DNA of 64,000 nucleotides from Elusimicrobiaceae bacterium. Lineage in GTDB: Bacteria; Elusimicrobiota; Elusimicrobia; Elusimicrobiales; Elusimicrobiaceae. Positions 59,574 to 64,000 of the stretch are shown here, in pieces. The translations under genes and the position numbers were made by a program. Every line of letters begins with the position of its first letter. The first letter of the stretch is position 1. Below the pieces are notes generated by a model. That model was not told the origin of the DNA and ran no database searches. It worked only from the letters and a program-made list of their open reading frames with translations. The stretch lies in assembly GCA_017534965.1 (NCBI GenBank), contig JAFXVA010000008.1, positions 1 through 64,000 on the forward strand, read 5' to 3'.

Positions 59574-60623
59574 TTACAAAGTTTTTAAGAAATAGCTAAA
59601 AGCGGATATTGCGCCGGCTGCCGGCATCGTTATAACCCAAGCCCAAACTATTCTTCTGGCAACGCCCCAGTGAACGGCGGAAAATCTTTTAAACATACCT
59701 GCGCCAACAATACCGCCTGTAATAATGTGTGTTGTGCTTACCGGAATACCAAACCAAGAGGATAAGAATAAAGAAAGAGAAGCACCTGTTTCCGCACAGA
59801 AACCGCCAATAGGTTTTAAATGGGTAATTTTTTGGCCCATAGTTTTAATAATACGCCAGCCGCCTGATAAAGTGCCAAGGGCTATTGCGCCGTAGCAGGC
59901 AAGTTTAACACTCCAGGGAACAAAAATTTCAGCACCGACATAAAATTGGGAATATTCGTGATTTGTCATAATTACGCGTGCAATTTTATCTGCCGTTTCA
60001 GGATCGGTGGCAAGAGCGCTAAATAAAATCATCATAATAATACCCATAGTTTTTTGAGCATCATTACCGCCATAACCTAAGCAGAAAGAAGCCGCAGAAA
60101 ATAATTCCGCTCTTTTAAAAAAAGCATCAACTTGGCGATATTTAAAAAATGCGCCTATCCTATAAACAATTATGGAAACGATAAAACTTAAAATCATACC
60201 TAAAATAGGAGCAACAACAATAAAAGCAACAATTTTTAAAATACCGCTTGTAATTAAAGAAGACGGCCCTGCCTTAACAAGTGCCGCACCGATAATACCG
60301 CCAATCAAAGCGTGCGAAGAACTTGAAGGAAGACCAAACCACCAGGTAATAAGATTCCACAAACAAGCACTAAGCAAAGCGGCAAAAACAAGATTAGTAT
60401 CAACTATAGAAATATCAACAATCCCGCCACCGATAGTTTTGGCAACGCCCATGTGGAAAATAAAGCATGCAAGAAAGTTAAAAGCAGTTGCCCACCAAAT
60501 TGCGACTCTGGGGGATAAAACTCTTGTGGAGATAATGGTTGATACGGAATTTGCCGCGTCGTGAAAGCCGTTTAAATAGTCAAAGGCCAAAGCCAAAAAT
60601 ATTAAAAATAAAACCCAAAACAT
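59574..60623 (-). CDS. pit: Inorganic phosphate transporter, PiT family
   Basis: 349 aa, about ten helices in two related halves. Signature DYLNGFHDAANSVSTIISTRVL (GANDxAN-like) and the second-half FCLGYGGNDAQKTMGIIMMIL; GIPVSTTHIITGGIVGAG is also typical. Symports phosphate with cations. 9 nt after the DUF47 gene, forming the usual accessory-plus-transporter pair. Confidence 0.95.
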   Translation of the reverse strand: MFWVLFLIFLALAFDYLNGFHDAANSVSTIISTRVLSPRVAIWWATAFNFLACFIFHMGVAKTIGGGIVDISIVDTNLVFAALLSACLWNLITWWFGLPSSSSHALIGGIIGAALVKAGPSSLITSGILKIVAFIVVAPILGMILSFIVSIIVYRIGAFFKYRQVDAFFKRAELFSAASFCLGYGGNDAQKTMGIIMMILFSALATDPETADKIARVIMTNHEYSQFYVGAEIFVPWSVKLACYGAIALGTLSGGWRIIKTMGQKITHLKPIGGFCAETGASLSLFLSSWFGIPVSTTHIITGGIVGAGMFKRFSAVHWGVARRIVWAWVITMPAAGAISAFSYFLKTL

Positions 60624-60632
60624 AGTTTTACC

Positions 60633-61256
60633 TTAGTTGTTCTTTACCAAAATGGAAGAAATTGTATTTGCGACATGTTCGCACATATCGGTAACGCCTT
60701 CGCTTTCTTCAAAAAGTTCTTTTTGCTTAATCGCCATTAAAGGATTAATCTTTTCATCGTTAAGTATGCGGGAAATGGCTTCATCGCGAATATCATCAGC
60801 CAAGTTTTCAAGACGGTTAATTTCAACACAATGTTTAGCGGTTTCTTTAATTTTCTTTTTGTGTCTCAAAGAAAGAACCGCTTGTGAAACTTCTATGGCA
60901 GATTTTTCTATAATCTCAGCAAGATGTTTTGATTCCTGCGAAGGTTCAAATATTTTAAAAAGATAAAAACGATTTGTGATAAGATAAATACCATCAATAA
61001 TATTATCCATTTGATTGGTAAGGTCTAAAATATCTTCTCTGTCAAAGGGGGTTATAAAACTTTCATTTAAAGTGTTTATGATATTGTGGCAAGATTCATC
61101 ACCATCGTGTTCAAGAGAGTGCATTTTGCTAACCATATCTCTTGTAATTTCCGGCGTGCAAACAATCTTTTTAAACAAAGAAGCACATTCCATAACAATA
61201 GCGGCCTGTGCGTCAAATAAATCAAAAAACTTTACTTCTTTTGGCATAAATAACAT
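60633..61256 (-). CDS. DUF47 / PhoU-like regulator of the phosphate transporter
   Basis: 207 aa, all-helical. Motifs EHDGDESCHNIINTLNESFITPFDREDILDLTNQMDNIID are the DUF47 signature with metal-binding acidic residues. Thought to regulate the neighbouring Pit transporter. Strong AGGAGG site. The leader upstream holds a terminator-like hairpin (61276-61307). Confidence 0.94.
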   Translation of the reverse strand: MLFMPKEVKFFDLFDAQAAIVMECASLFKKIVCTPEITRDMVSKMHSLEHDGDESCHNIINTLNESFITPFDREDILDLTNQMDNIIDGIYLITNRFYLFKIFEPSQESKHLAEIIEKSAIEVSQAVLSLRHKKKIKETAKHCVEINRLENLADDIRDEAISRILNDEKINPLMAIKQKELFEESEGVTDMCEHVANTISSILVKNN

Positions 61257-61275
61257 AAGGGGTTCCTCCTATAAT

Positions 61276-61307
61276 AAAAAAGCAGGCGCACAAAAGGGCC
61301 TGCCTGA
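61276..61307 (-). terminator. Terminator-like hairpin in the DUF47-pit leader
   Basis: On the minus strand GCAGGC and GCCTGC (61303-61298 and 61287-61282) enclose a 10-nt loop, with TTTTTT next and then AGGAGG of the DUF47 gene. Because the upstream gene is divergent, this hairpin can act only on the DUF47-pit transcript itself, i.e. as an attenuator. Confidence 0.75.
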
Positions 61308-61372
61308 TAATCAGCTAATTAGTGTATTAAGTGAAAAATTTATATTCTTTTCCATTACTTACATTATAGCAA

Positions 61373-61382
61373 TATTTTTAAG
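61373..61382 (-). promoter_or_regulatory. Extended -10 promoter of DUF47-pit
   Basis: Minus strand TTGCTATAAT, an extended -10 (TG-C-TATAAT). Transcription would begin near 61366, giving a leader of about 110 nt that contains the terminator-like hairpin. Confidence 0.6.
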
Positions 61383-61412
61383 ATTTGTTAAAAGGCCCAG
61401 TAAAAAATTTAA

Positions 61413-61425
61413 TATAATTTTTATT
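61413..61425 (+). promoter_or_regulatory. Leaderless promoter of the LMW phosphatase
   Basis: TATAAT (61413-61418) ends 7 nt before ATG 61426; no Shine-Dalgarno in between. TTAA precedes the hexamer and no clear -35 is seen. The start of transcription should coincide with the ATG. Confidence 0.5.
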
Positions 61426-61875
61426 ATGAAGAAAATTTGTTTCATTTGCCACGCTAATATTTGCAGAAGTTTTGGCGCAGAGTGCATTTTAAATAATCTT
61501 GCCGCTAAAGATAATAATAAGGAAATTATTGCAACTTCACGCGGTATTTACGCGCAAGATTTTTATGCCGTGCCGCAAAAACTTTGGGATTTTTTAAAAT
61601 CTAAAGACATTGAAAAAATAGAGCATAAGTCAACTCTTTTAACAAAAGAAGATTTACAAAACAATGACCTTATTTTAACAATGACAGACGACCAAAAAGA
61701 ATTTATTTTGGATAGATACGCCCAATTTACAGATAAAGTTTTTTTACTTCAGGAATATGTTTACGAAAAAGAAGAAGAAGTTAAAGACCCGATCTCTTTT
61801 AGTGGCTCAAGCTTTAATAAAGTGATGGAAAAAGTTTATCAGGCCGTAGTGGATTTATATAATAAGATAAAATAA
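61426..61875 (+). CDS. Low-molecular-weight protein-tyrosine phosphatase
   Basis: 149 aa. Catalytic CX5RS loop at the N-terminus: ICHANICRSFGAE (Cys8, Arg14), and the general-acid Asp in VKDPISFSGSSF near residue 122. Usual role is dephosphorylating tyrosine kinases or sugar/arginine-phosphate targets; arsenate reductase is a related alternative. The frame is open far upstream (to 61015) but this ATG is the family start. HANIC replaces the usual GNxC in the loop. Confidence 0.88.
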   Translation: MKKICFICHANICRSFGAECILNNLAAKDNNKEIIATSRGIYAQDFYAVPQKLWDFLKSKDIEKIEHKSTLLTKEDLQNNDLILTMTDDQKEFILDRYAQFTDKVFLLQEYVYEKEEEVKDPISFSGSSFNKVMEKVYQAVVDLYNKIK

Positions 61876-63361: not shown

Positions 63362-63397
63362 ATTATATAAAACTAATGCTTAAAATTTTGGTATAAT
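63362..63397. promoter_or_regulatory. Divergent leaderless promoters of nagA and the POT leader
   Basis: Minus strand: TATAAT (63367-63362), 6 nt, ATG 63355 of nagA. Plus strand: TGGTATAAT (63389-63397), 6 nt, ATG 63404 of the leader ORF. Both would start transcription at the start codon. Confidence 0.6.
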
Positions 63398-63403
63398 ATT
63401 TTT

Positions 63404-63475
63404 ATGATAAAAAACATTATTCACTCCCCCTTTATGATTTTGGCTATCTCAATTAAAGATAGTGCCGGGGTTTGA
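63404..63475 (+). CDS. Ile-rich leader peptide of the peptide transporter
   Basis: 23-codon ORF, starting MIKNIIHSPFMILAISIKDS and then AGV, with six Ile. It begins at the expected transcription start. Codons 8-9 contain CCCCC and codons 22-23 contain GGGG, and these bases take part in the attenuator fold described at 63426-63536. No Shine-Dalgarno, as for other leaderless starts here. Coding status is inferred from this arrangement. Confidence 0.55.
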   Translation: MIKNIIHSPFMILAISIKDSAGV

Positions 63476-63536
63476 TGTTTTTTAAAAAAGCTTTTTGTTA
63501 AAACCCCAAAATTTAAAAAAAGTTTTGGGGTTTTAA
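63426..63536 (+). promoter_or_regulatory. Four-segment transcription attenuator of the POT gene
   Basis: Segments: A CCCCC (63426-63430), B GGGGTTT (63467-63473), C TTAAAACCCCAAAA (63498-63511), D TTTTGGGGTTTTAA (63523-63536). A:B is backed by a GGC-TATCT / AGATA-GCC helix. C:D is a 14-bp terminator-like hairpin, and B:C (7 bp) excludes both. A ribosome paused over codons 5-7 would mask A, free B and prevent termination. Confidence 0.65.
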
Positions 63537-63626
63537 ATTTAAACAAAAAGAAAAAATTAAAAGTAAGATTATTTGTTTAAAATAAAAGATAAAGAAAAAA
63601 ACAAATAATTAGGATTGGAGGAATCC

Positions 63627-64000
63627 ATGCAAGACGCTGCTACACGTAATGTAACAAAAAGCGGCCACCCCAAAGGGCTTTATATGCTCTTTATGGTTGA
63701 AATGTGGGAAAGGTTCAATTATTATGGTATGAGAGCATTGCTTTCCCTCTTTATGATAAGTGCTGTTATTAACTTTTCTAAAGATGCCGCAAGTAAAGTG
63801 TATGGTATGTTTACCGCACTTGTTTATTTGACCCCTGTTTTAGGTGGTTATTTAGCTGATAGATTTATCGGCAAACGCCATTCTATTACAATTGGTGCCA
63901 CCCTTATGGCCCTTGGTCAATTTTCACTAGCATCTTATGAGATTATTAACCCGAGAGTTGCTTTAGTAATCGGTTTAACTTTAATTATTTTAGGTAATGG
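63627..64000 (+). CDS. POT/PTR2 family proton-dependent peptide transporter (partial)
   Basis: The first 124 codons are in the window. HPKGLYMLFMVEMWERFNYYGMRALLSLFM is the POT signature, with the ExxERFxYY-type motif in helix 1; YLTPVLGGYLADRFIGKR follows. Predicted to import di- and tripeptides with protons. Strong TGGAGG site 7 nt before ATG 63627. It is preceded by the attenuator leader, so expression likely responds to amino-acid or charged-tRNA status. Confidence 0.93.
   Translation, partial: MQDAATRNVTKSGHPKGLYMLFMVEMWERFNYYGMRALLSLFMISAVINFSKDAASKVYGMFTALVYLTPVLGGYLADRFIGKRHSITIGATLMALGQFSLASYEIINPRVALVIGLTLIILGN

Follow-up and report, generated by a model that had tools for sequence, protein, structure and literature searches.

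How is a phosphate transport operon expressed when an intrinsic terminator lies between its promoter and its first gene? This question is raised by the DUF47-pit operon of an Elusimicrobiaceae bacterium, identified on the minus strand of the window, the stretch of 64,000 nucleotides that was analysed here. The first gene (60633..61256, minus strand) codes for the DUF47/PhoU_div protein, a Pit accessory protein (PF01865, E 2.3e-19), and pit (59574..60623, minus strand), located 9 nt downstream, codes for the phosphate transporter (PF01384, E 1.6e-90). In an initial annotation, the terminator was interpreted as a site of premature termination control by a ligand, a protein or a small RNA.

Promoter and terminator of the DUF47-pit operon

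The promoter, TTAACA-17 nt-TATAAT at 61391..61363 (minus strand), matches the consensus at 11 of 12 positions and carries an extended -10 TG; the -35 hexamer TTAACA is located at 61386..61391 and the extended -10 sequence TGCTATAAT at 61363..61371. About 80 nt downstream, the hairpin GCAGGC-10 nt-GCCTGC was identified at 61303..61282 (minus strand), followed by the U-tract TTTTTT at 61276..61281 and the Shine-Dalgarno sequence AGGAGG of DUF47 at 61265..61270. All of these elements lie where they had been placed before. The description of the hairpin as a GC-rich stem of 6 bp holds for the exact GCAGGC/GCCTGC core, but the stem (GGCAGGC/GCCTGCT, 61281..61304) consists of 7 pairs when the outer G-U is counted, and the leader is about 100 nt rather than 110 nt long. 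The neighbouring gene, coding for an LMW phosphatase (61426..) with a tRNA-Arg gene beyond it, is indeed divergent from the promoter. This gene has a TATAAT 7 nt upstream of its own ATG (61413-61428, plus strand) and may itself be leaderless. In the window and its two closest leaders (L001-L003), the Shine-Dalgarno sequence of DUF47 could pair with a CCCC immediately downstream (AGGAGG..CCCC, 61256-61275), which would be a possible additional translational layer.

The hairpin of 30 nt folds with -12.8 kcal/mol (z -2.6), and 2 of 200 shuffled sequences folded equally well. For the whole leader of 118 nt in the window, structure was not above the usual (z -0.27). Allowing up to 2 mismatches, the hairpin pattern occurs at two sites in the window, compared to 0.96 expected, and the pit leader is the only exact match. 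A standard terminator scan limited to loops of at most 8 nt gave no site in the leader region. In a scan of the window that covered 250 nt of upstream sequence for each of 71 ORF calls, four terminator-like hairpins were identified, the strongest preceding a POT-family transporter gene, and none of the four ends less than 80 nt from the start codon; DUF47 is outside these 71 calls, having been displaced by a longer overlapping ORF.

For comparison, a genus set of 18 genomes was used, which yielded 15 readable leaders after two genomes without a DUF47 match and one cut at a contig end were left out. The order of promoter, short ORF, terminator and ribosome site is kept in all 15 leaders. Covariation in the terminator stem is modest but in its favour, with changes on both sides at 3 of the 6 core pairs. 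No credible promoter was identified between the hairpin and the ATG of DUF47 in any of the 15; this interval contains two TATAAT-like hexamers among all leaders, each 14 nt from the ATG and with at most 3 of 6 matches to a -35 hexamer. The presence of promoter and terminator in every leader, and of no usable promoter from the hairpin to the start codon, supports control by premature termination as first suggested.

A short open reading frame that ends at the terminator

A short ORF located downstream of the promoter and upstream of the hairpin had been overlooked in the leader. In the window, this ORF, coding for MEKNINFSLNTLIS (61311..61355, minus strand; stop codon TGA at 61313..61311), comprises 14 codons and fills the interval from promoter to hairpin. 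Its ATG is located 7 nt downstream of TATAAT, and the ORF is probably leaderless; the stem begins 6 nt downstream of its stop codon. In all 15 leaders of the genus, the first ATG downstream of TATAAT opens a frame of 14 to 28 codons. The ATG lies 6-7 nt from TATAAT in 8 of the 15, which places it at or adjoining the predicted first transcribed base, and the other 7 ORFs are not leaderless and were seen by eye to be mostly without an obvious Shine-Dalgarno sequence. Counted upstream from the stem, the stop codons are found between -10 and +13 nt, with 12 of the 15 between -1 and +9 and 14 between -10 and +9; the three outside -1 to +9 are L009 and L010, whose ORFs extend 10 nt into the stem, and L012, with its stop 13 nt upstream.

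The frame of the leader ORF is not open by chance. Over the 15 leaders it contains one stop in 280 codons, compared to 60 in 544 for the other two frames, and it is open in 14 of the leaders versus 2 and 0 for the others. Shuffling each leader separately gave P values of 0.018-0.136, which combine to 1e-7 (Fisher) if the leaders are taken as independent; since they are related, the preferred estimate is the one to which each of four sequence groups contributes a single value, which gave 0.003-0.009. Within the group of the window (L001-L003), the ORF has a constant length of 14 codons and a gap of 5-6 nt to the stem at a nucleotide identity of 52-76%.

The peptide is not conserved across the leaders, although the frame and the position of the stop hold. 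In the two groups tested for substitutions, no selection at the peptide level was detected (P 0.19 and 0.27), and no conserved residues near the stop codon were identified among the 15 peptides. For L008 and L010 an inner ATG was taken in the peptide comparison, giving shorter peptides than the rule of the first ATG. A variable peptide with a maintained length and stop speaks for a track on which a ribosome would travel, rather than for an arrest peptide or a small protein with a function of its own. The two features from which translation of the ORF is inferred are its openness and the position of its stop codon.

Leaderless starts look common in this genus, judging from the spacing of promoter motifs and start codons. 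The pattern TGNTATAAT-N6-7-ATG was identified at 308 sites summed over the 18 genomes, compared to 32 for reversed-pattern controls, and the looser TATAAT-N5-9-ATG is weakly enriched in this genome (171 versus 140 controls). Of the 14 leaderless-pattern sites of this genome, 11 open ORFs of at least 121 codons, two are the attenuator ORFs and one is a frame of 8 codons. In the window, 43 TATAAT sites are followed by an ATG after 5-37 nt, and exactly two of them, those of pit and of the POT transporter, lead into an ORF of 9-40 codons with a terminator-like hairpin. In mycobacteria, leaderless short ORFs are said to act as attenuators of the downstream operon with cysteine codons as the sensor, as Canestrari reportedly described in 2020. 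The pit leader is similar in its leaderless short ORF in front of an operon, but differs in that it has no codon run.

The comparison outside of the genus covered four named loci and 20 leaders that belong to other genera or families. In 18 of the 20, plain promoter-like sequence was recognized by eye together with a ribosome site, and no terminator was seen upstream of DUF47; three of the named loci gave the same picture. The remaining two leaders (L035, L036) and the named locus L084 have an ackA arrangement upstream of DUF47. This arrangement is present in the sister genus g6 (L014, L017-L030; also L035 and L036), where DUF47-pit is located directly behind ackA and the ackA terminator, with no obvious promoter between this terminator and DUF47-pit; for L014, the upstream gene was recognized as acetate kinase from its translation. 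At several g6-type loci, a conserved CCCGG..CCGGG hairpin was identified between ackA and DUF47-pit. In another family, TTTACAC-like direct repeats with a spacing of 11 bp precede DUF47 (L040, L041, L043, L061, L067, L070 and L073), which we take to resemble a Pho box. Matches were found in 3 of 14 and 4 of 17 leaders of that family; in the present genus, 4 of 15 leaders have matches, which are AT-rich. As a candidate for the ancestral control, the repeats are only a lead, the pattern having been picked after looking.

Proposed ribosome occlusion and its alternatives

We consider it rather probable that the DUF47-pit leader is a translation-coupled transcription attenuator, in which occlusion by a ribosome would act as the switch. 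Transcription would begin at the extended -10 promoter and end by default at the hairpin and its U-tract. If a ribosome is located at the stop codon of the leader ORF while the terminator is being transcribed, it would cover the 5' arm of this hairpin, the hairpin could not form, and the polymerase would continue into DUF47-pit. As the signal, we suspect a race of the ribosome against the polymerase whose outcome would depend on NTP and phosphate status: at low NTP or phosphate, the polymerase would be slow, the ribosome would catch up, and the importer would be made. In accordance with this model, the stop codon is found within about 10 nt of an intrinsic terminator or inside it in 14 of the 15 leaders, and no competing antiterminator, which occlusion would not need, was identified beyond shuffles in any of the 15 leaders. 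For E. coli, the available part of PMC4824070 describes an almost complete repression, by the ribosome, of terminators located a few nt downstream of a stop codon. The same text also states that at terminators this close to the promoter the ribosome usually arrives late unless the polymerase pauses. A candidate pause site, formed by a hairpin within the ORF and a T-rich stretch downstream of it, was identified by folding and by eye in L004-L007, and a shorter one in L011, L013, L015 and L016. In the group of the window (L001-L003) none was convincing. The closeness of the terminator to the promoter, with no clear pause hairpin seen in the leader of the window, counts against occlusion. Rho was identified above the cut-off in 16 of the 18 genomes, and effects of Rho are possible.

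Attenuators of this kind are already known. For the pil1 operon of Streptococcus gallolyticus, a leader ORF that stops in or near a terminator turns the operon on, and the accessible part of the report includes no antiterminator in the model (PMC3894217); there the ribosome prevents the hairpin, which for the pit leader is a proposal by analogy. In pil1, the length of the ORF is switched by the number of GCAGA repeats (phase variation) and a pilus is controlled (PMC3894217, in part), whereas in the pit leader the position of the stop is fixed and a phosphate importer lies downstream. The pyrBI leader of E. coli similarly has a short ORF running to the terminator, where a ribosome close behind the polymerase prevents termination and the nucleotide pool sets the race, as may be the case for pit (sections available of PMC4824070 and PMC3641672). 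In contrast to the pit leader, pyrBI comprises pyrimidine genes, a leader gene of 135 bp and defined pausing sites (PMC4824070, PMC3641672, same sections), and the pause hairpin seen in several pit leaders but absent from the group of the window weakens the analogy. The mgtM ORF in the mgtCBR leader of Salmonella is likewise short, codes for a non-conserved peptide and precedes a transport operon; it links the coupling of transcription and translation to the ATP level, which could also apply to pit, but alternative stem-loops are used and high ATP turns the operon on, unlike what is proposed for the pit leader (PMC3641672, as far as accessible).

The chief rival to occlusion is a partial terminator that acts constitutively, or else a small independent gene ending in a terminator of its own, in which case DUF47-pit would depend on unregulated readthrough and the ORF would have no regulatory role. 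Ordinary genes, too, often end shortly upstream of a terminator (PMC4824070, in its available part), and the g6 operon behind the ackA terminator points in the same direction. A frame and stop that are kept while the peptide changes would be unusual in a gene for a small protein and are what a ribosome track should show, and the 18 leaders of other genera and families with plain promoter-like sequence also speak against this reading, which we regard as possible but unlikely. The peptide bears equally on stalling of the TnaC type, in which a nascent peptide responding to a small molecule would hold the ribosome at the leader stop on the terminator arm. An aromatic pattern directly before the stop (FAF, FAY, IY or LY) is present in several leaders, but it is absent from the window, which ends in LIS, and from L004, L007, L009, L010 and L012; together with the absence of peptide-level selection, this makes such stalling improbable.

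The agents proposed in the initial annotation, and classical attenuation, were assessed from the RNA. A terminator that ends the leader immediately upstream of the ribosome site would suit control by a ligand, a protein or a small RNA. However, an ORF fills the leader as far as the hairpin, in the window the sequence of this ORF folds no better than shuffles, and Rfam at gathering scores gave only tRNAs in the window and the 15 leader loci. The conserved antiterminator pairing expected of homologous leaders was searched for as an upstream segment pairing with the 5' arm of the terminator better than shuffles, and was identified in none of the 15. As a positive control, the leader of the nearby POT transporter gene gave an antiterminator in 3 of 3 cases (-11.8 to -13.7 compared to about -4 kcal/mol). 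Control by such an agent is accordingly judged to have a small chance of being correct. An antiterminator of the trp/his kind is thus missing from the pit leader, which does have the ORF and the terminator. No run of one regulatory codon is shared by the 15 leader peptides, and the stop is too near the stem, compared to the more than 20 nt by which terminators of amino-acid attenuators are kept from the stop (PMC4824070, available part); a classical amino-acid attenuator is thus very improbable.

Phosphate transport in the genus and a second candidate attenuator

Pit is present in 16 of the 18 genomes, while matches to the PstA family above the cut-off were identified in three, all of less than 90% completeness. 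Pit as the sole phosphate carrier of the genus was rejected, since a homologue of the Na/Pi cotransporter is present in 11 of the 18 genomes, including this one; Pit is probably the main carrier, not necessarily the only one. As a second test case for nucleotide sensing, pyrB was dropped, being too rare in the genus (above the cut-off in 2 of 18 genomes and absent from all 11 near-complete ones).

A more speculative extension, which we hold to be doubtful, is that this gut genus, mostly without a recognisable Pst system, controls Pit without any RNA that binds a ligand, the race between the polymerase and a ribosome on a leaderless micro-ORF reading the status of NTP, and hence phosphate, or of magnesium. 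Leaderless initiation favours intact 70S ribosomes, and the micro-ORF could in this way couple the import of phosphate to ribosome assembly, which depends on Mg2+. If ribosome occlusion holds for the pit leader, phosphate uptake in an uncultured gut lineage would be set by the coupling of transcription and translation, a control best known, as far as the accessible sources go, from pyrBI in pyrimidine synthesis and from the pilus operon pil1. In the literature searched, mostly papers available without subscription, leader-peptide attenuators were found neither for a pit operon nor in Elusimicrobiota.

Leaderless micro-ORFs would then act as attenuators in Elusimicrobiota, a second, classical-looking one being located 2 kb away, before the POT-family peptide transporter (63389-63630, plus strand). 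Its ORF is leaderless, comprises 23 codons and codes for the Ile-rich peptide MIKNIIHSPFMILAISIKDSAGV. A GGGGTTT at the end of the ORF can pair with AAACCCC as an antiterminator; otherwise, AAACCCC forms the terminator. By eye, a POT-type leader ORF was not seen at the other loci of the genus that were inspected; in L088 and L089, both the ORF and the pairing are kept.
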